Positions 8,397 through 18,922 of a stretch of 64,000 nt of DNA are shown piece by piece (positions within the stretch are counted from its first letter, which is position 1; every line of letters begins with the position of its first letter). The notes beneath the pieces are model-generated. The model worked only from the letters and a program-made list of their open reading frames with translations, was not told the DNA's origin and did no database searches. The position numbers and the translations under genes were made by a program. Origin of the DNA: Streptomyces sp. NBC_01304 (GTDB taxonomy: Bacteria > Actinomycetota > Actinomycetes > Streptomycetales > Streptomycetaceae); assembly GCF_035975855.1 (NCBI RefSeq), contig NZ_CP109055.1, positions 10,230,001-10,294,000 of the forward strand, read 5' to 3'.

Positions 8397-9968
8397 TCAG
8401 GTCTGTTCGGCTCGCGTCAGCCCGCGCAGCGCCTTGCGGTCGAGCTTGCCGACGCTGGTCAGGGGCAGTCGGTCCAGGACGTGCACCTCACGCGGGTACT
8501 TGTGCGCGGACAGCTGCGTACGGGCGTACGTCCCCAACTCGCCGTCGTCCAGGGAGCAGCCGGGCCGCAGCGCGACGAAGGCCACCACCTCCTCGCCGAG
8601 GCGCGGATCGGGCTGGCCGACCACCGCGGCGGCGGCCACCTTGGGGTGGGTGAGCAGGGCGTCCTCGACGTCGCGCGGGTAGACGTTGAAGCCGCCGCGC
8701 AGGATCAGGTCCTTCTTGCGGTCGACGATGAACAGGAAGCCCTCGTCGTCGAGGGTGCCGATGTCGCCGGTCTGCAGCCAGCCGTCGCGCAGCGCCTGCG
8801 CGGTCTGCTCCGGGGAGTGCCAGTAGCCGCTCATCACGCCGGCGGAGCGTACGCAGATCTCGCCGGGGGAGCCCGCGGGCACGGCCCGGCCCTCGTCGTC
8901 GCGTATCTCGATGGCGTACCCGGGAAGCGGCAGCCCGACCGAACCGGGCCGGATCCGCCCCGGCCGGGTGGTGGCGATGACCGAGCCGGACTCGGTGCAG
9001 CCGTAGCCCTCCAGGATCTCGCTGCCCGGCACCACCCGCTCCCACTCGGCGCGGACCTCCGCGGGCAGCGGAGCCGCCCCGCTCGCCACATGGCGCAGCT
9101 CCGAGAGGTCGGCCTTCTCCAGCGGCTGCGCGAGCAGCATCTGGATCATGCTGGGCACGAGGGTGGTGCGCTGGACGCGGTACTCCTGGGCCAGGGCCAG
9201 CCACTCGGCCGGGGCGAACCAGCGCTGCAGGATGGCGAGTTGGGGCTCGACGGCATGCCAGCCGACCAGTGTCACGATCAGCCCGTACGCGTGCGAGAGG
9301 GGCAGCGGGATCAGGGTCCGGTTGATGCCTTCGGCCAGTCCGTCCTCCTGGCCGGCCTGGTGGGTGCTCGCCGCGCAGGAGCGCAGGTTGCGGTGGCTGA
9401 GCATGACGCCCTTGGCGCGGCCCGTGGTTCCGCCGGTGTAGAGCAGTGCGGCCAGCTCGTCGTCGCCGCGCAGCACGATGTCGGCCGGGGCGGCCGATTC
9501 CAGGTCCGCGAACGCCGTCAGCCGCACCCCGCCCGGCAGGTCCGGGGTCCCGTCCGGCGCCTCGCCCACGAGCACGACTTGACGCAGGGCGGGCGCGGCA
9601 GGCGCCGCCGCGGCGATCGTGGGCAGCAACTCCGGGCTCGTCACGACGACTTGGGCCCCCGAGTCCGCCAGGATGTGGCCGAGCTCCGTCCCCGACACCA
9701 GGAACATCACCGGCGTCACCACCCCACCGGCCCGCCAGACGGCGTTGTACGTGATGCCGACCTCGGGACAGTTGGCCATCAGGGCCACCACCCGGTCCCC
9801 GGGCCGCACCCCGAGCTGCGTCAGTCCGGCACCGACCCGCCGGGCGCGCTCCGCCAACTGCCCAGAGCGATAGGTGTGCCGGTCATAGACGAGTGCGTCG
9901 TGATCGCCGAGCCGCTCCAGGGCGGACTCGGCGAGCAGGGCGAGGTTCAGGGTGTGATCGAGAAGCAT
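8397..9968 (-). CDS. AMP-forming acyl-CoA synthetase / ligase
   Basis: Adenylate-forming enzyme of 523 residues that activates a carboxylic acid with ATP and usually transfers it to CoA. Motif A3 (the P-loop-like AMP site) is LLYTGGTTGRAKGVMLSH, A5 is LEGYGCTESG, A8 is GWLQTGDIGTLDDEG, followed by RKKDLILRGGFNVYPRDVE, and the catalytic Lys of motif A10 is in SVGKLDRKALR near the C-terminus. The pattern is that of medium or long chain fatty acid CoA ligases. The start is set at MLLDHTLNLALLAESALERLG, which matches the usual N-terminus; the open frame extends about 66 codons further without homology. Substrate unknown. Forty-two bases separate it from the methyltransferase gene on the same strand. 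Confidence 0.93.
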   Translation of the reverse strand: MLLDHTLNLALLAESALERLGDHDALVYDRHTYRSGQLAERARRVGAGLTQLGVRPGDRVVALMANCPEVGITYNAVWRAGGVVTPVMFLVSGTELGHILADSGAQVVVTSPELLPTIAAAAPAAPALRQVVLVGEAPDGTPDLPGGVRLTAFADLESAAPADIVLRGDDELAALLYTGGTTGRAKGVMLSHRNLRSCAASTHQAGQEDGLAEGINRTLIPLPLSHAYGLIVTLVGWHAVEPQLAILQRWFAPAEWLALAQEYRVQRTTLVPSMIQMLLAQPLEKADLSELRHVASGAAPLPAEVRAEWERVVPGSEILEGYGCTESGSVIATTRPGRIRPGSVGLPLPGYAIEIRDDEGRAVPAGSPGEICVRSAGVMSGYWHSPEQTAQALRDGWLQTGDIGTLDDEGFLFIVDRKKDLILRGGFNVYPRDVEDALLTHPKVAAAAVVGQPDPRLGEEVVAFVALRPGCSLDDGELGTYARTQLSAHKYPREVHVLDRLPLTSVGKLDRKALRGLTRAEQT

Positions 9969-10206
9969 GGAGACGCCTGCCTTCTGTGGACCGGCTTGCC
10001 TTCTGGTGACCGTTGCGTACGACTGACTCGTGGTGGACGAGTGCACCGCCGTGCACAGCTGACCGCTGCCTGCAACATGCCAGTCCACGCCGGGACTTCG
10101 ACAGTGGTGTGCAGGCACCTGTGTGCCGGCCGGGGCGGGCGGAGCGCCGGCCGGGCGTTCGCGCATGTCCGGACCTGATGGTCAACTGGTGCACTAGCGT
10201 GGGTAT

Positions 10207-11919
10207 ATGGCGCTGCATCAGCATCAGGACCGACCATGGCGGGTGCGGATCGACGACGAGCGGGGCGTACCGCGGGGCGCGGGAGTGCTGCTCGACGAGC
10301 ATCGGGTGCTGACCTGCGCCCACGTGGTCAAGAACGCCGCGGCGCACCCCGGGGGAGCCGCGGCGCACGTGCGGGTCAAGAGCGTGGCGTGCCGCCCGGA
10401 GTGGTCCCGCACCGCGCGCGTCGCCCCGGGCACCTGGGTGTACCGCGACGGCACGCGGCGCGGTGACGTGGTCCTGCTCGAACTCGACGAGCCGCCCGGC
10501 TGCGATGCCCGTACCAAGCTGTGGAAGGTGCCCATCTCCGGCGGCAGGGTGCGCGTCTACGGCTTCCCGGGAGTCGAGCCGGACGGGGTAGGGGTGGACG
10601 CCGAACTGGCGGGCTCCGGTGGCCGCGAGGGGGAATGGGGGCTGCTCAAGCGGATGGGCGAGGGCGACCCCTGGATCGAGGAAGGCTACTCGGGCGCCGG
10701 GGCGATGGCGCTGGACGGAGCGTTCGCGGACCGCGTGGTCGGCATCGTGGTCGCCGACTACGTCAACGACGGCGCCAAGGCGGCCTGGATGCTGCCGACC
10801 GAGCGGATCCTGTCCTATCTGCCGCAGCTCGCCACCCTGACCGGCGGTGACCGCACCGTCGACCTGGGATCCGCCGACGGAGACCTGCCCGGCGAACTGC
10901 TCGACGACCCGCTGCAGCTCGCGCTGACCCGGGAGCTGACCCGGCTGCTCGCCGCGGACCGGGCGGGCACCGTCGTCGTCGGCACCGGCAGTGCGACCGG
11001 TGCCGGCTCCTCGTGGCTGGTGCGCCTCGCGCGTACGTCGGACCCGGCAGCGCACTCCGACGCGCAGGACGACCGGGACCGGCCCGGCGGCACGCCGAGC
11101 GGGACCGTCCTGGGGTTCGGCGCCATCGACGCCGCCTACGACGCGCGGGGCAAGTCGACGGACGACGTACGCGCCTATCTGTCGAGCCGGTTCGGGCTCG
11201 GCGGGAACGGCGGCATCGGCGACCTGTTGCACATGCTGCTGCACCGGCGGCCGCCGCCCTGCCTGGTGGTGGACGGCATCGACCGGGCCGCCGACTGCGC
11301 CGGCCTTGTCGCCGATCTCCTCGCGCCACTGGCCCTGCGTGCGCGCACCCGCGGATTGCGGCTCGTCCTCGGCTTCGAGGGACCGCCGCCCGACGACCTG
11401 CCGTACGACACCTACCTCGACCCGACACCCCTGGCCGGCCCGGCCAGGGCGCGGACGGTCACCGACGACGAGGCCCGGGCGGCGGTCGACCGGCTGGCCG
11501 ACGCCGAGGACGAAGCCCTCGTACTGCACAGGTCGGGGGCGAAGTTCCTGGCGCCGCCGCGCCTGCCGGCGGGCCAGGCACCCCGACTGCGCGTACGCCT
11601 CGCCACCGCCCGGACCACCCACCCCAACCCGGAACTCGCAGCAGTCAAGGAACAGGCCGAGGCCGCCCGCACGGCCGTCGTCCGCAGCGACGACGCACTG
11701 CGGCAGATGAACGCCGAACACGAAGAACTCAGCGTCCGCCTGGAGCTGCACCGGGTACGGGCCGCGCGGCTGGTCGGCGCCGAGGACCTGCAGCTCGGGA
11801 AGCTCTACGTGGCCGCGGCCCGCGCACTGCAGAGCGTTCCCGTGGACCTCGCGGCAGCCAGGAGACGGGTCCCCAGATACATCGAGGCAGTCAACAGCCG
11901 CACCGGCGAAGGAGGTTGA
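10207..11919 (+). CDS. Trypsin-like serine protease fused to a degenerate NTPase-like domain
   Basis: First gene of the six-gene sensor operon; 570 residues, no signal peptide, so cytosolic. Residues 1-205 are a chymotrypsin-fold protease: His39 in VLTCAHVV, Asp87 in RRGDVVLLEL and Ser162 in EEGYSGAGAM, the last a variant of the usual GNSGGP. Residues of about 245-400 look like a STAND-type P-loop module: GTGSATGAGSS (259-269) sits where a Walker A would be but lacks the Lys, and CLVVDGID (352-359) resembles Walker B. The C-terminal about 90 residues are charged and probably coiled coil. The ATG follows a weak TAGCGT -10-like hexamer by 6 nt, so the mRNA could be leaderless. The next gene starts 4 nt after the stop. 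Known trypsin-NTPase fusions occur in actinobacterial conflict systems; this assignment is an inference. Confidence 0.8.
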   Translation: MALHQHQDRPWRVRIDDERGVPRGAGVLLDEHRVLTCAHVVKNAAAHPGGAAAHVRVKSVACRPEWSRTARVAPGTWVYRDGTRRGDVVLLELDEPPGCDARTKLWKVPISGGRVRVYGFPGVEPDGVGVDAELAGSGGREGEWGLLKRMGEGDPWIEEGYSGAGAMALDGAFADRVVGIVVADYVNDGAKAAWMLPTERILSYLPQLATLTGGDRTVDLGSADGDLPGELLDDPLQLALTRELTRLLAADRAGTVVVGTGSATGAGSSWLVRLARTSDPAAHSDAQDDRDRPGGTPSGTVLGFGAIDAAYDARGKSTDDVRAYLSSRFGLGGNGGIGDLLHMLLHRRPPPCLVVDGIDRAADCAGLVADLLAPLALRARTRGLRLVLGFEGPPPDDLPYDTYLDPTPLAGPARARTVTDDEARAAVDRLADAEDEALVLHRSGAKFLAPPRLPAGQAPRLRVRLATARTTHPNPELAAVKEQAEAARTAVVRSDDALRQMNAEHEELSVRLELHRVRAARLVGAEDLQLGKLYVAAARALQSVPVDLAAARRRVPRYIEAVNSRTGEGG

Positions 11920-11923
11920 GGCG

Positions 11924-14113
11924 ATGACGGCGTGCAACCGCCCCCAGTGCGGGCGCGGCACCATCGACGAGCAGGGGTTCTGCACCGTGTGCGACAGGGA
12001 GCCGCTGCCGCCGGGCGACGGCCCCGAGGTAGAGCAGCCGACATCGGAGAGACCGGCGAGCACCGGCGTGGCCCGGGTGCGTCCGGACCCCTGGTACGGG
12101 CTCGCCCTCGTCGACGACGACCCGCTGCCCGACGCCCCGGCGGCCGACGCGAAGGTGGATGGTGCGACGGCGGCCGATGCCCCGGAGGACGGGCAGGAGG
12201 AGCAGCCCGACATCGGACCCCTTGCCGAGGAGCACCGCTACTGCGCCGCCCCGGGCTGCCCGGAGCGCGTCGGGCGCGGCCACGGAGGCGAGCCGGGGCG
12301 GACCGTCGGCTTCTGCGCGCACTGCGGCACACGCTTCGACTTCCGCAAGGTCGACGACCTCGTCATCGCCGGGCGCTACGAGGTCCGCCGCCTGCTCGGC
12401 CAGGGATCGTACGGCGTGGCGTACCTCGCGTACGACCGTAATCTCGCCACCCGTGTGGTCGTCAAGGAGTTGCGTACGTCTTTGCAGTCGGGCAGGGAAC
12501 GCGACGTGCTGAAGGGACTGCGGCACGACGCCGTCGTCCGCATCCTGGGCCACGAGCTGGAGGACGGGCGCAACTACCTCGTCCTCGAGTACATCCCCGG
12601 CACCGGCTTTTCGGCACTGCCCGACGACCGCCTCGAGAACCTCCTCGCGCACGGCGTGCGGGTGCTGCAGGCGCTCGACTACCTGCACGCCCGGGGCCTG
12701 CTGCACTGCGACGTCAAACCCCTGAACATCGTCCGCTTCCACGAGGTGGCGCCCTTCGGCCGGCTCGACCGGGTGCGGCTCATCGACTTCGGCGCGGTGC
12801 GGTCCGTGACGGACCGAACCCCCCTCGCCGAATACACCGAGCGGTACGCACCGCTGGCGGGGGACGCGGAGTACGGGAAGACCGGCCCCACCCCCGGATT
12901 CGACCTGTACGGAATCGGCATGACACTGAAGGAGGTGTGCCGAACCCACCTGACGGACCACTCGGCAGTCGGCGTCCGCTCGCTCAACCTGCTCCTGGAG
13001 CGGGCGACGAACCCCAACGGGCCCTCGTGGCGGTTCACTTCGGCACGCCAGTTCGGCGAGCAGCTCAGCGGTGTGATCCGCCAGATCGTGGCGGCACCGC
13101 AGGCCGGCCGCCGCGTGGCACGCCCCTCGGCCCTGTTCGGCTCCCTCACCGAATCGCTGCACGGCGGCATCGGCGAGGCCCGGCCGCTCGGCCACTGGAT
13201 CAGAGCCGGCCTGGACGGAGCAGGCCCGGGCGAGGCGGCTGCCGGAGCGGACGGCGGCGTACTGACCCTGCCGCCGCCGTTCTCCCCGCCCGGCCCGCAC
13301 GCGATCGCCGCGGCGCTCCCGATCCCCCTTGAGGATCCGGACGACCGTACGGTGACCGAGGCCGCGACGAGGCAACTGGCCGAGAGCCGCGACGCGTTGC
13401 GGCGCAGGGACACCGACCGCGCCCAGCAGGCCCTGGCGCGGGCGAGGCTGCCCGAGGGCCACTGGCTGCACGCCTGGTTCGCCGCCCTGATCGCCCTCGT
13501 CCGCCAGGACGTCGCAGGCGCCGCGCGGCAGTTCACCGTCGTGCGCGCCGCACTCCCGGGCGAACTGATCCCCCAGATCTCGCTCGGCCTGTGCGCCGAA
13601 CACGCCGGCGACCACGTCGCCGCCGAGTCGTACTACGCCACCGCCTTCGGCACCACCCCGGCCCTCGGGGCGGCCGGGTTCGGTCTGGCCCGCGTCGTCT
13701 TCCGTACCAAAGGCGCGTCCGAGGCCGTACGGATCGTCGACGAGCTGCGCCAGGAGGACCGCTTCGCCCACGAGGCGCGGGTGGCGGCCTTCCGGTTCTC
13801 CGTGGCGGGGCTCGGACCCGAGGCCGCCGTGGCCGACCTGGCGCACGCGCGGGCGGAGCTCGAAACGCTGGACGTGGACGACGCGGACCATGCCGCGCTG
13901 CGTGCCGAGCTGCACCACGCGGAGTTCCAGCACCACGGCGACCGGCTCGCCCTCTCCGAGGCGGTACGCGACCTCGCGCGCCACTCGCTCAGCGAGCGCG
14001 ACTACGTCGCCCTGGTCGACCTGGCCAACCGGCTGCGTCCCGAACTGGATTGGCCATGGCGCAGAGTGCGCGCACGACGGCCGCGGCCCGCGGCCGCCGA
14101 CGCGGCGCAATGA
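11924..14113 (+). CDS. PknG-like serine/threonine kinase with two zinc ribbons and helical repeat tail
   Basis: A soluble 729-residue kinase. Two Cys4 zinc-binding modules open the protein: C4/C9/C20/C23, and C107/C112/C131/C134 directly before the kinase. The kinase domain has the Gly loop GQGSYG (159-164), the ATP Lys in VVVKEL (181), catalytic loop HCDVKPLN (261-268) and DFG (288-290). The C-terminal about 300 residues are alpha-helical, TPR-like, with repeated GHWLHAWFAAL and HAGDHVAAESYYATAFG units. Zinc module, kinase and TPR in this order is the layout of mycobacterial PknG, which controls glutamate metabolism through GarA/OdhI; no GarA-like FHA gene is in the window. The catalytic residues are intact, so it should be active. 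It sits between the protease and VWA genes in the operon. Confidence 0.9.
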   Translation: MTACNRPQCGRGTIDEQGFCTVCDREPLPPGDGPEVEQPTSERPASTGVARVRPDPWYGLALVDDDPLPDAPAADAKVDGATAADAPEDGQEEQPDIGPLAEEHRYCAAPGCPERVGRGHGGEPGRTVGFCAHCGTRFDFRKVDDLVIAGRYEVRRLLGQGSYGVAYLAYDRNLATRVVVKELRTSLQSGRERDVLKGLRHDAVVRILGHELEDGRNYLVLEYIPGTGFSALPDDRLENLLAHGVRVLQALDYLHARGLLHCDVKPLNIVRFHEVAPFGRLDRVRLIDFGAVRSVTDRTPLAEYTERYAPLAGDAEYGKTGPTPGFDLYGIGMTLKEVCRTHLTDHSAVGVRSLNLLLERATNPNGPSWRFTSARQFGEQLSGVIRQIVAAPQAGRRVARPSALFGSLTESLHGGIGEARPLGHWIRAGLDGAGPGEAAAGADGGVLTLPPPFSPPGPHAIAAALPIPLEDPDDRTVTEAATRQLAESRDALRRRDTDRAQQALARARLPEGHWLHAWFAALIALVRQDVAGAARQFTVVRAALPGELIPQISLGLCAEHAGDHVAAESYYATAFGTTPALGAAGFGLARVVFRTKGASEAVRIVDELRQEDRFAHEARVAAFRFSVAGLGPEAAVADLAHARAELETLDVDDADHAALRAELHHAEFQHHGDRLALSEAVRDLARHSLSERDYVALVDLANRLRPELDWPWRRVRARRPRPAAADAAQ

Positions 14114-14215
14114 AGCCGTTACGGACGGCAAACCGAGGCGCTACGCTCCTGCTGCCCACGGGGGGCACACGGGACGCGAAGCGGTCATGTGCGGCGAGGG
14201 GGTGGTGAGAGACCG

Positions 14216-15685
14216 ATGCGGGACACCACGCATTCAGGACTGAACTTCACCGTGGAGGTGGACGCGCCGACGGAGCTGGCCTTCGACGCGACGCGGGCCG
14301 ACGCCCTCCTCACGGTGCACGCCTCCTACGCCGACGAAGCCGCCGGAGACGCGGCCGGGAACGCCACGCGCAGCGCCGAGATCCTCATCATGGACCGGTC
14401 CCTGTCGATGGCGGGACTCGGCAAACTCGACGAGGCCAAGCGCGCGATCTGCGCCGCGGTCGACACCCTGCGCGACGGAACCCTCCTGGGGATCGTGGCC
14501 GGGCACCACCAGGCCGAAGTGGTCTACCCGCGCGGCGGCGGCCTCGCCCGCGTCGACTCCGCTGTCAAACGCGAGGCGAAGGGCCACGTCGTCGCCCAAC
14601 TCCCCGAAGGCGGAACGGCGATCGGGCAGTGGCTGGCCTGCGCCCGTTCGCTCTTCGACACGTCCGCCGGGCCCGGCACCGTACGGCACGCCGTGCTCTA
14701 CACCGACGGCAAGGACGAGCACGAGACCCGCGACGAGCTCGACGCCGTCCTCAGGGACTGCGCCGATCGCTTCACCTGTGACGTGCGCGGCCTCGGCGAG
14801 GACTGGCAGTACGCCGAGCTCCTTCGCATCACGGAGGCGCTGCAGGGCACCGCGGAAGCCATCATCGACGTCGCCGACCTCACCGAGGACTTCGTACGCC
14901 TCATGCATCAGGCTCAGCGCATTGTCGTGCCCCGGGCCTACTTGGGGCTGCGGATCAACTCGGTGTTCCGGCTGGAGTTCGTACGGCAGACGCGTCCTGT
15001 CCAGGCCGATCTGACGTCCCAGCGCCAGCAGTTCGGCGACGAGATCCACATCCCGCTCGGTGCGTGGTCCCCGGGCGACCGTCAGTATGAGATGTCGCTG
15101 CGCTTCGACCCCGAGGCGCTGCCCGTCGGCGAGAGACTGCGGGCCGCCCGCATCACGCTGCACACCGAACTGCCCGATGGACAGCGCCGGGTGTCCACCG
15201 CGTCGCCGCAGGCACTGGTCGTACGGCGGCACCATTCGATTCCGGACAATGACCATTTCTTCTTCGCCAACCGCACCCGGATCGAGAACGAGCGTGAGCT
15301 GGGCATGGCGATGCGGGCCTGCGTCGACGAGTACCTGCAGGGAAACCATCAGCGCGCGGACATGGAACTGCGCCAGGCGCTGCTCCTGGCCGAGCAGTTG
15401 GACGACCACGAGCAGGCGGCGCGGCTGCGCTCCGTGGCGGGCAGGGGCCCGGACAACCGGGCGATCGTACGTCGCAACGTGACTCGGGGAGAGCTGCAGC
15501 GGATCGGACTCGGCTCGACGAAGACCCGCCGTCCGCCCGCTGACGCGCTGCAACCGGACACGGTCGACGCCGCCACCGACACCCTCCACAGCCGCTGCCC
15601 GCACTGCGGCGCCGCGCTCCCTTCGGGCGTGGCCCGCTACTGCGAAGGATGCGGTCGTCAACTCGACGCGGGGAACGCCGAATGA
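14216..15685 (+). CDS. VWA domain protein with C-terminal zinc ribbon
   Basis: A 489-residue protein without a signal peptide. After a beta strand block the VWA domain begins at about residue 54; the metal-dependent adhesion site is complete, with D-x-S-x-S in ILIMDRSLSMAG (D60, S62, S64), a Thr in LPEGGTAIGQ and an Asp in VLYTDGKDEH. A beta-rich segment and a short helical repeat region follow, and the end is a Cys4 ribbon (CPHCGAAL...YCEGCGRQ), echoing those of the kinase. VWA proteins of this type act as Mg-dependent protein-protein scaffolds. The ATG at 14216 has GAGA upstream; an earlier in-frame start adds nine residues. The 102-bp gap after the kinase gene is the largest within the first five genes. 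Its stop overlaps the next start (ATGA). Confidence 0.88.
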   Translation: MRDTTHSGLNFTVEVDAPTELAFDATRADALLTVHASYADEAAGDAAGNATRSAEILIMDRSLSMAGLGKLDEAKRAICAAVDTLRDGTLLGIVAGHHQAEVVYPRGGGLARVDSAVKREAKGHVVAQLPEGGTAIGQWLACARSLFDTSAGPGTVRHAVLYTDGKDEHETRDELDAVLRDCADRFTCDVRGLGEDWQYAELLRITEALQGTAEAIIDVADLTEDFVRLMHQAQRIVVPRAYLGLRINSVFRLEFVRQTRPVQADLTSQRQQFGDEIHIPLGAWSPGDRQYEMSLRFDPEALPVGERLRAARITLHTELPDGQRRVSTASPQALVVRRHHSIPDNDHFFFANRTRIENERELGMAMRACVDEYLQGNHQRADMELRQALLLAEQLDDHEQAARLRSVAGRGPDNRAIVRRNVTRGELQRIGLGSTKTRRPPADALQPDTVDAATDTLHSRCPHCGAALPSGVARYCEGCGRQLDAGNAE

Positions 15686-16647
15686 GCGCGGCGAGTGGCA
15701 CGAAGGAGGCGGCAACCGGCCCACTGGGCGCGGGGGCCGCGGCATGGGCGCGGCTGCGTGCCGCGCATCCGGTGGCGGTGCTGCGCTGGCTGCGCGCGGG
15801 TGTCCTTGCGATGGTGTGCGCGACCGCGGTCGTCTATCTCATGGTGGCCGGCGACGGGGGGCAGCAGATCACCTCTGCTCGGCGTGCTGACGCGGCGGTC
15901 AAGGACATCCGGGACGCACGCGTGGCGGCCAAGGACGCGGACAAGGCGCTCAAGGCCGTCGCGGACATCGGACAGATCCAACTGACCGGCACGGGCAATG
16001 AGTTCGCGAACGCCGCCGCGAGCATCAGCACCCTGGTCACGGCGGCGGCCCAGGGCAATGCGGCCGGAAAGCGTGGGACGAAGCAGATCTCGTACGTCCA
16101 GAACCAACTGACCGCATTTCAGCAGGCCGCTGACACAGCCGATGACTCCGCGGCCGGCAACCGAACGGGTGTGGGGCCCGCACGCACCGCACTGAACGCC
16201 CCGCACTTGAACGATCCCGAGACCAAGCAGCCCCTCGCCGGTACCGGCGGTTTGCGCGCCTCGCTGAAGGACCTGGAGCGTCTCCAGCGCGCGGGCCTCG
16301 AGCGACAGCGGGACGAGGGCTGGCTCGACCCCGTCCAACTCTGGTGCCTGGCCGCCCTGCCACCCGCGGTGATGCTGGCACTGGTCCTCGTCACCGGACG
16401 CCTCCTGGCGCGGCACTTCCACCGGTACGTCAGCCCACGTCTGCTCGCTGCGCTCGTGGTGACCACAGGCGTCGCGGTCACCACCGCGGCGCTCACCGCG
16501 CACGACGAGAACCGGCTGGCCGCCCAGCCCTGGGCCGGGGAACCGGGAGCCATGACCCTCGTGCTGTCCGCGCTCGCCGCGGCCGCGGTCCTGAACCACT
16601 TCGCGTACCGCCCCCGCCTCGCCGAGTACAGGTACCCGCGCCCATGA
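15682..16647 (+). CDS. Four-TM membrane protein with large extracytoplasmic domain (GlnX-like topology)
   Basis: A 321-residue protein of no recognised family. TM1 is at about residues 38-57 (GVLAMVCATAVVYLMVAG), followed by about 165 mostly helical, polar residues predicted outside, then three closely spaced TMs (LWCLAALPPAVMLALVLV, LLAALVVTTGVAVTTAALTA, MTLVLSALAAAAVLNHF). This layout is like GlnX, the membrane relay between the lipoprotein GlnH and kinase PknG in mycobacteria, although I see no clear sequence similarity from memory. Starts and ends in ATGA overlaps with both neighbours, so it is translationally coupled to the VWA protein and the solute-binding lipoprotein. The inferred role is to pass ligand state of the lipoprotein to the cytosolic partners. 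Confidence 0.8.
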   Translation: MSAASGTKEAATGPLGAGAAAWARLRAAHPVAVLRWLRAGVLAMVCATAVVYLMVAGDGGQQITSARRADAAVKDIRDARVAAKDADKALKAVADIGQIQLTGTGNEFANAAASISTLVTAAAQGNAAGKRGTKQISYVQNQLTAFQQAADTADDSAAGNRTGVGPARTALNAPHLNDPETKQPLAGTGGLRASLKDLERLQRAGLERQRDEGWLDPVQLWCLAALPPAVMLALVLVTGRLLARHFHRYVSPRLLAALVVTTGVAVTTAALTAHDENRLAAQPWAGEPGAMTLVLSALAAAAVLNHFAYRPRLAEYRYPRP

Positions 16648-17972
16648 CGAAGGCCACGACGAAGCCCAAGAGGCAGTCCACCACGCGGCACACCACAGCG
16701 CCCGGGCGCGGCATCGGCGCCCGATTGCTGCAACTCGCCCTGACCCTCGGACTGTTACTGATCGCGGCCGGGTGCGGCGCTCCGGCCGCGCCCGACCGGG
16801 TGACGATCATGGTTCCCTGGACGCAGCAGGACGAATTCCAGACCTTCTACTCCGTCATCAAGCAGTTCGAGGAAGACAACGAGGGCATCCAGGTCGACTT
16901 CCAGGTCACCCGGGCGCTCACCCAGCAGCTCGACGCCTCGGTGGCGGCGGGAGCCCCGCCGGACCTCGCCGTGCTGCCGAGCGTCGGCGCCATCGCCAAG
17001 TATGTGGGCAAGGAGCCGGTACTGCAGGAGCTCGACGAGGACACCGTCGACATCACCGCGTACCTACAGCCCTTCCGCGGACTGGCCCAGGTGAACGGCG
17101 CGACCTACGCGGTGCCGGTCAAGGTTGATGTCAAAAGCCTTGTCTGGTACGACCCCGGGACGACCGCGAAGCCGCCCACGGAACCGACCGGCGCTCTTGA
17201 GGCCTACGCCCGCGAGCCCGACCACGCCTGGTGCCTGGGACTCGCCTCGGGCCCGACCTCCGGCTGGCCCGGAGCCGACTGGATCGCCGACATCCTGCTC
17301 GCCGACGCCGGGGCCGACGCCTATGCGGGCTGGCTCTCCGGGACCAAGTCCTGGGAGTCCCCGGAGGTCAGGCAGGCATGGTCGCAGTGGCAGAGCCTGG
17401 TGGGAAGGGAGACGCTGAAGGAGGCGTCCTCCCTGGGCTTCGCCGAAGCCTCCAAGGACATGACTGAGGCCTCGCCCAAGTGTCAACTCGCCCATGGCGC
17501 ACGCTCGGCCATGGCTTCAGACCTTCAGAAGGGCGACCGGTTCGCCTTCGCCCCGTCGGCCGCCCGACAGCCCCTCCAGGTGTCCGGCGACTTCATCGGC
17601 ATGTTCACGGACGACAACCCGAGTGCGCGCGCCCTGCTCGCCTATCTCGCGGGCAGCCGCGCCCAGCAGGCATGGGTCGATGCGGAGGGTTCCTCCGCCT
17701 TCTCCGCGCACACCGAAGTGACGCGTTACGCCAACGCGGTTCAGCAGCGGATCGCCGAACTGATCCAGCCGCGGTCCCATCGCACGCTCTGCTTCAGCGC
17801 CGCCGACGTGATGCACCCCGATGTCGCCGCGGCCTTCTACCGGGCCGTCCTCCACTACGCCGACGGCACCGACGACGACCTGAAAGACCTGCTGAACGAC
17901 CTCCAAGAGGTACAGGTCGGGCTGGGTAACTCTCCCGTTCCCGAGCGGAGCATCTGCGCCGCCCCGACCTGA
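16644..17972 (+). CDS. Extracytoplasmic solute-binding lipoprotein (sensor, no transporter nearby)
   Basis: A 442-residue family-1-type solute-binding protein. A basic N-terminal region precedes the hydrophobic stretch and lipobox LIAAGC, with the lipidated Cys at residue 44. The mature part begins with APDRVTIMVPW and continues with EDNEGIQVDFQV, PPDLAVLPSVGAIAKYV and VNGATYAVPVKVDVKSLVWYD, as in sugar-type binding proteins. No permease or ATPase gene follows, so a sensing role within the operon is more likely than import. The hydrophobic segment contains an in-frame TTA leucine codon at 16755-16757; in Streptomyces such codons need the bldA tRNA and delay translation until development. It overlaps the TM gene by 4 nt. 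The ligand is unknown. Confidence 0.87.
   Translation: MTKATTKPKRQSTTRHTTAPGRGIGARLLQLALTLGLLLIAAGCGAPAAPDRVTIMVPWTQQDEFQTFYSVIKQFEEDNEGIQVDFQVTRALTQQLDASVAAGAPPDLAVLPSVGAIAKYVGKEPVLQELDEDTVDITAYLQPFRGLAQVNGATYAVPVKVDVKSLVWYDPGTTAKPPTEPTGALEAYAREPDHAWCLGLASGPTSGWPGADWIADILLADAGADAYAGWLSGTKSWESPEVRQAWSQWQSLVGRETLKEASSLGFAEASKDMTEASPKCQLAHGARSAMASDLQKGDRFAFAPSAARQPLQVSGDFIGMFTDDNPSARALLAYLAGSRAQQAWVDAEGSSAFSAHTEVTRYANAVQQRIAELIQPRSHRTLCFSAADVMHPDVAAAFYRAVLHYADGTDDDLKDLLNDLQEVQVGLGNSPVPERSICAAPT
16755..16757 (+). other. TTA leucine codon (bldA-type control)
   Basis: Codon 38 of the solute-binding lipoprotein reads TTA, inside the signal-peptide hydrophobic core six codons before the lipobox Cys. 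TTA is very rare in Streptomyces and is read by the developmentally controlled bldA tRNA. I noticed no other in-frame TTA in the genes I read codon by codon, but I did not check all of them. Confidence 0.9.
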
Positions 17973-18044
17973 TCCGCACGCCGTACGAACCGCACCGGAT
18001 CCGCGCCGCCGAGGAACGGCCCCGACCACCGACCTAGGAGCCCC

Positions 18045-18398
18045 GTGTCCGAACCAGTCGAGTTCACCCTCTCCGACGGAACCACCGTCCTCGTCTCCGC
18101 ACCCCCACGGGTGGGCACCTCGATCGTAGGTCTGGGCGGGCGCCCGGAAGGAGCAGGCCGGACCCTGCGCCAGGTACTCGCCCCGATCACCGCCGCGGCC
18201 GCCGACGTGATCGCCGAGTTCCGCGAGCACACCCACCGCCCCGAGGAGGTCGAAGTGGCCTTCGGCGTCACGCTCGACACGCAGTTGGGCGCGATCATCA
18301 CGAGCGTAAAGACGACCGCCCACCTCGATGTACGCCTCCGCTGGAGCAGCCCGCCGCCCGCACCGGACGACGCGGGTACGCCGAGCTCTGGGGCCTGA
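18045..18398 (+). CDS. Trypco1-like (CU044_2847 family) small protein
   Basis: A 117-residue protein beginning with a GTG preceded by AGGAG at 5 nt. It has VEFTLSDGTTVLVSAPP at the N-terminus, a middle helical region (LAPITAAAADVIAEFREHT) and RPEEVEVAFGVTLDTQLGAIITSVKTTAHLDVRLRW at the end. This two-strand, helix, strand pattern matches the family named trypsin-co-occurring domain 1, found next to trypsin-like proteases in actinobacterial NTP-dependent conflict systems. The name is from memory, not a search. Its presence six genes after a trypsin-like protease supports the operon being one functional unit. The gap to the lipoprotein stop is 72 nt and no terminator is evident between them. Confidence 0.78.
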   Translation: MSEPVEFTLSDGTTVLVSAPPRVGTSIVGLGGRPEGAGRTLRQVLAPITAAAADVIAEFREHTHRPEEVEVAFGVTLDTQLGAIITSVKTTAHLDVRLRWSSPPPAPDDAGTPSSGA

Positions 18399-18445
18399 CC
18401 GACTGCCGGGTCAGGCAGCCACAACTCGTCGCCGGGGAGGCGGAG

Positions 18446-18922
18446 TCACGCCTTGATGGGCTCAGCCCGCACGTTCGCCAGCATCGTGCGCAGCACCCTG
18501 ACCGTAGTGGCGTAATCCGCGTCGTCGATGCCCCGGTGGATGTCCGCCCGGATCCGGGGAACCGCGGCCTTGACCCGCTGCCGTGCCGCCTCCCCGGCCT
18601 CGGTGATCCACAGCTGACCGTCGTCGTCCCGCAGCAGCCACCCGCGAGCGAGGAGCACCTCGGCGTCCGCGACGGGTTCGTCACCGGGCTGTACGTACTC
18701 CCGCAGGGCGGCGGCCAGTTCATCGACGGTCCGCCCCTGACCGTCGGCGGAGAGATCGTGTGCCGACAGGTGCCGCAGCAGCCAGTACTGCGGCTGTGAG
18801 AGGCCGAGCTCCGCGAGCTGCCCGCGGATGAACCCGATGACTTCCTTGTGCGTGATGTCGGTCCAGTAGGCGACGGGCTGGGCGGCCAATTCCTCGTCAG
18901 CAGTGTGCGTGTCCGTGTTCAT
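18446..18922 (-). CDS. MarR-type winged-helix regulator
   Basis: A 158-residue winged helix-turn-helix protein. TDITHKEVIGFIRGQLAELGLSQPQYWLLRHL corresponds to helices 1-2 and the start of the DNA-binding part, GRTVDELAAALREY to the helix-turn-helix and EVLLARGWLLRDDDGQLWITEAGEAARQRV to the wing and last helix. Target unknown. Transcription is towards the sensor operon end, converging on the Trypco1-like gene. The promoter has the 19-bp spaced dyad described separately and the ATG lies directly at the expected transcription start, suggesting a leaderless mRNA. The MITE-like element lies just upstream, between this gene and the aldo/keto reductase. Confidence 0.85.
   Translation of the reverse strand: MNTDTHTADEELAAQPVAYWTDITHKEVIGFIRGQLAELGLSQPQYWLLRHLSAHDLSADGQGRTVDELAAALREYVQPGDEPVADAEVLLARGWLLRDDDGQLWITEAGEAARQRVKAAVPRIRADIHRGIDDADYATTVRVLRTMLANVRAEPIKA

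Follow-up and report, generated by a model that had tools for sequence, protein, structure and literature searches.

The window analysed here is a stretch of 64,000 nucleotides in the 10.99-Mb genome of Streptomyces sp. NBC_01304 (G000:C1:10230001-10294000), and it contains six genes, here called g1 to g6, on one strand at positions 10207-18398. Their products combine a trypsin-like protease, a kinase of the PknG type, a VWA protein, a membrane protein with four predicted transmembrane (TM) helices, a solute-binding protein (SBP) and a Trypco1 protein of 117 amino acids (aa). The genes and the region in front of them are as follows.

10207..11919, + strand: g1, trypsin-like protease, 570 aa, presumed cytosolic (Pfam Trypsin_2, 4.5e-8)
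11924..14113, + strand: g2, PknG-type Ser/Thr kinase, 729 aa, with an N-terminal Cys ribbon, a rubredoxin-like domain, the kinase domain and TPR (Pfam Pkinase, PknG_TPR, PknG_rubred)
14216..15685, + strand: g3, VWA protein with a C-terminal zinc ribbon (Pfam VWA_3; MIDAS-type residues D60xSxS, T134 and D164 intact)
15682..16647, + strand: g4, putative GlnX-like relay, four TM helices and a single extracytoplasmic helical bundle (model and profile comparison)
16644..17972, + strand: g5, solute-binding lipoprotein of the SBP_bac_1 type, presumably a dedicated sensor (Pfam SBP_bac_1, 6e-11)
18045..18398, + strand: g6, Trypco1 protein (Pfam Trypco1, 2.8e-21)
9969..10206, no strand: intergenic, presumed promoter region, between g1 and the divergently transcribed gene of an acyl-CoA ligase (start taken as 9968)

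The g1 and g2 genes are separated by 4 nt, g2 and g3 by 102 nt and g5 and g6 by 72 nt, and ATGA overlaps join g3 to g4 (15682-15685) and g4 to g5 (16644-16647), so that the co-directional layout described in an earlier reading of the bare letters (the sequence-only reading) was seen in full. Its statement that no terminator lies inside the unit agrees with a simple scan of 9800-18700, which gave no terminator-like site; in high-GC DNA such a result carries little weight. A sigma-70 scan of 9969-10206 found no promoter upstream of g1, and one is placed there presumptively. The six-gene operon was confirmed, and it was interpreted as one signalling unit for ligand-gated, kinase-controlled proteolysis, a reading to which we assign a probability of about 0.62.

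Conservation of the operon and its wider family

When g4 was used as a probe, matches were obtained in 5 of 81 genomes (its own included), one of which has an extra weak match without the operon around it, and in three named Streptomyces records. No match to the g4 protein was found in 72,556 plasmid records, and an origin of the operon as plasmid cargo was rejected. A g4 profile run over 293 genomes of the order gave matches in 18, strong in 11; five of the other seven hold more distant family members and two are spurious, and the weak matches L016, L046 and L049 have no operon neighbours. The closest copies, termed class A, number 16 with that of the window. In all 15 that were fetched (the strong loci L009-L015 and L036-L043) the order and strand of g1 to g5 are the same, and in 13 of them Trypco1 is the last gene of the operon. 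Among seven loci, a 4-base overlap was found between g3 and g4 in four and between g4 and g5 in six, with starts chosen by script.

A g5 profile run over the 293 genomes picked out 78 SBPs with high scores, distributed over 77 genomes (the 11 among them), that stand above background SBPs; the line between the two groups (8.6e-38 against 3.4e-37), across which the gap is small, was set from the score list before fetching. A PknG-type kinase gene lies at 77 of the 78 loci. Fetching covered 62 further family loci (every one above the line), 14 background SBPs below it and four protease-only matches, and because the genome search scores only the top candidates in each genome, the counts are lower bounds. 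Across the 82 fetched family loci, a PknG-type kinase-TPR gene was detected in 81, a protease in 65 and a VWA gene in 64, and a four-TM open reading frame (ORF) lies directly upstream of the SBP gene in 76 (the exceptions are L063, L090, L092, L099, L103 and L105). No protease was detected in the remaining 17, which comprise 12 loci of one kinase clade, L056, L055, L079 and L099 (both at a contig edge, where presence cannot be judged) and L051, which is unexplained. L055 appears as an operon remnant with VWA, TM and SBP genes, upstream of which neither a kinase-TPR nor a protease gene was detected. The protease-kinase-VWA-TM-SBP set was also found in one genome beyond the order (G918). As a marker beyond the order the SBP profile alone was rejected, for the widened profile A8 (matches in 46 of 396 genomes) also returns SBPs there that may have no tie to PknG. 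The combination is a widespread family in Streptomyces and relatives and not a single-genome case, which the earlier reading did not see.

Between-gene distances for kinase, SBP, TM, VWA and protease are correlated with r of 0.82-0.97, values reached in 0 of 500 permutations, although plain co-inheritance gives the same result. The view that the six genes are chance neighbours on a shared transcript, for which nothing beyond the common strand speaks, is contradicted by these correlations, by the order kept in 15 of 15 loci and by the protease-kinase fusions described below; chance linkage was rejected and its probability is negligible. The neighbourhood survey proposed in the sequence-only reading thereby bears out the claim that the genes are kept together. 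That reading had listed separation of the genes, a permease beside the SBP and a solitary protease as outcomes that would count against it. The genes proved to be conserved jointly and the SBP to be without a permease, but trypsin domains without PknG or SBP genes do occur (L127-L130, L133-L137), with the match there confined to the protease domain. At L130, L133, L134, L135 and L136 such matches lie in stretches that also hold a Trypco1 ORF, and these loci are perhaps other trypsin/Trypco systems. L132, found with the g1 profile, gave no match with separate domain profiles.

Protease, kinase and Trypco

Modelling and profile comparison divided g1 into three parts.

10240..10797, + strand: g1 residues 12-197, chymotrypsin/DegS-like protease domain (AlphaFold2 model; PDB matches)
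10891..11418, + strand: g1 residues 229-404, alpha/beta domain without Walker A (AlphaFold2 model; motif scan)
11581..11904, + strand: g1 residues 459-566, helical C-terminal module, homologous to a 441-aa protein encoded before pknG (profile comparison, BLAST)

The AlphaFold2 model of the whole protein has a pLDDT of 85.7 and a pTM of 0.84, and the best PDB fold matches of the protease domain are DegP, DegS and trypsin. The triad H39/D87/S162 is invariant in 8 of 8 aligned class-A rows, and all 65 protease loci of the family have the corresponding triad intact. The earlier description of g1 as a protease-NTPase was rejected because none of the 65 related protease genes encodes a Walker A motif (GxxxxGK[ST]) in the 450 residues from the start of the protease; the motif is also absent from the 8 class-A rows. 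Among the 50 matches listed in a PDB search with the g1 model there were only proteases and none to the middle domain, which we infer to descend from a P-loop domain.

All three g2 domains with Pfam families (PknG_rubred, Pkinase, PknG_TPR) scored above the cut-offs, and the class-A kinase profile aligned with Mycobacterium tuberculosis PknG (2pzi) over 57-682 with E 1e-79. Residues K181/D263/D288 are invariant in 8 of 8 class-A rows and the K/D/D set is intact in 80 of 81 family loci, the remaining one being a gap; the claim of an intact PknG-like kinase was thus upheld. In a quick kinase tree, in which long branches were flagged, 83 family rows stand opposite 10 canonical kinases on one branch (SH-aLRT 100), class A is a single group (SH-aLRT 100) and the 12 protease-free loci are nested within protease-bearing lineages, which suggests that the protease is ancient in the family and was then lost in the 12-locus clade. 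In five protease-free operons (L058, L061, L068, L069 and L083) a second Ser/Thr kinase gene lies divergently upstream, and that of L058 shows PQQ-like repeats by eye in the C-terminal half of its product. Protease, PknG-type kinase and TPR occupy a single open frame at four loci (L100, L106, L111 and L112), as was confirmed by Pfam for L111 (Trypsin_2, Pkinase, PknG_TPR); these fusions were counted as one event, since their kinases cluster (SH-aLRT 83).

A divergent Trypco2 ORF adjoins the protease gene in 33 of the 65 protease loci; at L111, for example, the divergent neighbour is Trypco2 (Pfam, 4e-27). Trypco1 is found in 14 (13 of class A, and L044), on the operon strand, 3' of the SBP gene and at a distance of some 4.6-6.0 kb from the frame of the protease, and the two domains occur together in none. 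Among the 17 protease-free loci, two of which are cut by contig ends, a Trypco ORF was seen only at L051 (Trypco2, about 8 kb off). The difference between 47 of 65 and 1 of 17 gives a Fisher p of 7e-7, a value that the relatedness of the loci makes too low; with the edge loci L079 and L099 excluded, the comparison is 47 of 65 against 1 of 15 (p 3e-6). The pairing of protease and Trypco claimed in the earlier reading is therefore a property of most of the family's protease loci, and its pattern agrees with the definition of Trypco1 and Trypco2 as trypsin co-occurring, mutually exclusive domains (PMC7159879).

A protease effector has been proposed for the trypsin/Trypco modules of VMAP ternary systems, and the operon might likewise be an anti-phage or anti-competitor conflict system, in which the outside sensor or the VWA protein would detect an attack and the protease would stop the host cell or kill the intruder. 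The mutual exclusion of Trypco1 and Trypco2, as described for conflict systems (PMC7159879), fits this explanation. Two further points in its favour are the patchy occurrence (of 293 genomes, 11 have class A, judged by strong TM-probe matches, and 77 have the family) and the flanks, which mostly differ between copies (in the set of 16 class-A copies, eight same-side flank pairs match over 300 bp). The nine flanking proteins of the window copy, however, are by Pfam ordinary enzymes, transporters and regulators with no MoxR ATPase, VMAP or other effector; Pfam likewise gave no MoxR AAA ATPase or VMAP match in the six operon genes, and PADLOC returned only generic kinase and weak protease matches on the window. 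Nor does the sensor SBP evolve faster than other class-A genes (identity to the window copy of 49-62% for g5 against 48-64% for g1-g3, with g4 somewhat lower at 37-57%), and a sugar-type external sensor would be odd as an intruder detector. We regard a conflict role as possible but unlikely. Slightly more doubtful still is a transmembrane alarm family in streptomycetes, evolved from GlnH-GlnX-PknG, in which an SBP sensor would act through a PknG-type relay on a Trypco-partnered protease serving as an immune or programmed-death effector.

Probable sensor and relay, and the canonical pknG cluster

The lipobox residue Cys44 of g5 is invariant in 8 of 8 class-A rows. With four query permeases (Pfam BPD_transp_1) taken from three of the 14 background SBP loci that served as controls, an ATP-binding cassette (ABC) permease was found beside the family SBP in 0 of 82 loci, two stretches having one more than 8 kb off, and no permease ORF of the tested type was found in the whole window. 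The controls have an adjoining permease in 14 of 14 cases and a PknG-TPR gene in 0 of 14. Because no permease adjoins in the 82 loci or lies in the window, the SBP is most likely a sensor and not part of an importer; its assignment as an ABC component was rejected, and the orphan lipoprotein of the sequence-only reading stands. The closest solved relative of g5 is AcbH (E 3e-11), which has a sugar ligand, and judged from the SBP family and this match the ligand of g5 is probably, if weakly so indicated, carbohydrate-like. Two cysteines, C197 and C383, are invariant in 36 aligned family SBPs, which suggests a structural disulfide.

In g3, the zinc ribbon falls below the Pfam cut-off, and its four cysteines (C461, C464, C476 and C479) are invariant in 8 of 8 rows. 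No Pfam family was matched by g4. Its model (pLDDT 71, 8 rows; modest confidence) has a single bundle and a short TM3-TM4 loop, and a PDB fold search with it gave no match at E <= 0.001. Profile comparison linked the TM proteins of classes A and B with a probability of 99.5, and those of class B to a single GlnX sequence with 97.2 (reversed control 0.1). Through this chain of profile matches g4 may be regarded as a shortened GlnX, and the claim that it is GlnX-like is supported by way of intermediates, the direct match being weak.

The same genome has a canonical cluster (L017; G000:C1:7007000-7026000) encoding GlnX, GlnH, a 441-aa protein, PknG, PP2C, VWA and FHA proteins; its GlnH belongs to SBP_bac_3 by Pfam, which gave no family for the 441-aa protein or GlnX. 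The C-terminus of g1 shares 36% identity with the 441-aa protein over 85 residues by BLAST, and HHalign gave probabilities of 97.0 for class A alone and 98.8 for 39 rows (reversed controls 0.2 and 1.3, respectively). In 394 genomes of the taxonomic class, matches confined to the g1 C-terminus were obtained in many, the canonical cluster among them, and all nine that were fetched are the gene just before pknG. On this comparison, g1 looks like a partner protein of the 441-aa type to which a protease and a middle domain have been added N-terminally, and its gene likewise precedes that of the kinase. The presence of a VWA protein and of a homologue of the g1 C-terminus in this ordinary cluster was also missed by the earlier reading. 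The 441-aa helical protein, PP2C, VWA and FHA proteins were seen around pknG in L017 and also in L138-L146, and much of this is found again in a different family of the class (f19: L138-L140, L144). At L142:8131-12174 (G013) the 441-aa protein and PknG lie partly in one long frame, with a piece of the 441-aa protein in another frame, which may reflect either a true fusion or a frameshift introduced by sequencing.

Signalling through GlnH, GlnX and PknG provides a precedent for the operon (PMC6069109, PMC9769921, PMC8546545) and, as the closest characterised pathway, is one of nutrient sensing (PMC6069109, PMC9769921). By analogy, the operon might serve nutrient or cell-envelope signalling with no conflict role, sugars or wall fragments outside the cell governing how a transcription factor or enzyme is proteolysed in growth or differentiation. 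AcbH as the nearest solved SBP and the intact catalytic residues are consistent with such a role, as is the retention of the canonical cluster in the same genome, which implies an added sensor with a different input. Against it stand the patchiness of the family (77 of 293 genomes) and the open-licence papers found, where protease and Trypco are described only for proposed conflict systems. We hold this explanation to be a serious candidate, at a little under even odds, and regulation was weighed somewhat above conflict because the nine flanking genes are ordinary and the closest studied pathway is nutritional.

A further explanation places the protease upstream of, or on, the sensor, where it would cleave the kinase, the VWA protein or Trypco to end or start signalling, while the true output would be phosphorylation of an unlinked FHA protein. 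Unlike the canonical cluster, the window unit has no FHA or PP2C gene (Pfam of the six genes and nine flanking proteins), and the protease-free clade retains kinase, TM and SBP, both in keeping with this order of events. Canonical PknG functions without a linked protease, however, so that none is needed for kinase output, and we consider the arrangement improbable.

Proposed signalling and comparison with known systems

For kinase-controlled proteolysis, the following route is proposed. An extracytoplasmic ligand, probably of carbohydrate type, would be captured by the lipoprotein g5, and loaded g5 would contact the helical bundle of the GlnX-like g4, which would relay its state to the TPR domain of g2. 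The kinase, held together with the VWA protein g3, would then control the cytosolic protease g1, docked via the C-terminal module that it has in common with the 441-aa partner of the ordinary pknG cluster; g1, g3 or g6 could each be phosphorylated. Trypco1 (g6) may be an adaptor, an inhibitor or the first substrate of the protease. The output would be regulated proteolysis, replacing or adding to control of 2-oxoglutarate dehydrogenase. The proposal in the sequence-only reading that the operon merges GlnH-GlnX-PknG sensing with the trypsin/Trypco pairing of NTP-dependent conflict systems holds insofar as both sets of parts are present and co-inherited; its NTPase label is not supported.

Several observations weigh against this reading. 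Neither Trypco was found in 18 of the 65 protease loci, and Trypco1 is absent in 2 of the 15 fetched class-A loci (L012 and L013). The 12 loci of one kinase clade are without protease and VWA and keep kinase, TM and SBP, from which it follows that the sensor part can work alone. At L056 the first gene (L056:6967-8736) is by eye without all three catalytic residues, a pseudoprotease retained in an operon. In the four fusion proteins the catalytic-loop Lys of the kinase is replaced by Ser (DLS) and DFG by DVA, changes by which the kinase may be weakened. For the relay, the class-A TM protein matched GlnX directly with probabilities of only 0.1 (single sequence) and 19.6 (eight rows); class B reached 97.9 against the eight rows, yet with a reversed control as high as 31.5, and classes C and E gave 0.3 and 0.1 against the single sequence and 93.6 and 92.0 against the eight rows. 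The sequence that served as GlnX in these comparisons comes from the Streptomyces cluster L017 and owes its name to position and resemblance; it is not a characterised GlnX.

PknG signalling has a known role in the control of metabolism, and trypsin/Trypco pairs are known, in the open-licence papers found, only as predicted conflict modules; the family joins both. With its natural protease-kinase fusions, it allows the idea that a bacterial sensor kinase drives a protease to be put to the test, and the family provides a functional handle on Trypco domains. It also points to the 441-aa protein, VWA, PP2C and FHA as proteins that may be members of PknG signalling in Streptomyces. Within the open-licence literature, no paper was found joining PknG with a trypsin-like protease in Streptomyces, and the papers on Trypco gave no PknG in the main text. 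The Streptomyces Ser/Thr kinases SGR_4432 and SCO1468 were noted in 2018 to be genetically linked to SBPs (PMC6069109). They have the link between kinase gene and SBP in common with the present family; the passage concerned mentions no protease, VWA or Trypco, and no mention of the two kinases under those names was found in open-licence literature besides that paper.

With the VMAP ternary systems (MoxR-vWA-VMAP; PMC7159879) the operon has in common a trypsin-like protease with either Trypco1 or Trypco2 and a vWA protein. It differs in having neither MoxR nor VMAP in the six genes and nine flanking proteins, in its external SBP sensor and in the intact residues of its kinase, where mostly disrupted kinases have been reported for the ternary systems (PMC7159879). 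The canonical cluster of the same genome also has a PknG-type kinase, a VWA protein (38% identity to g3), a GlnX-like protein, an SBP and, within the 441-aa protein, the C-terminal module of g1, whereas it has no protease domain, no Trypco was found in it and PP2C and FHA are present. The GlnH-GlnX-PknG pathway of mycobacteria and corynebacteria, conserved in Streptomyces, corresponds to the operon in the rubredoxin-kinase-TPR architecture of PknG and in a lipoprotein SBP without permease and a putatively GlnX-type four-TM relay within one operon. The SBP is of family 1 here and of family 3 there, and the relay has one bundle here, as far as the modest-confidence g4 model indicates, and two there, with periplasmic domains of some 156 and 153 residues in GlnX of Corynebacterium glutamicum (PMC9769921). 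The kinase substrate in that pathway is OdhI/GarA. The unit of the window is without PP2C and FHA, includes a VWA protein and adds a trypsin-like protease together with Trypco1.

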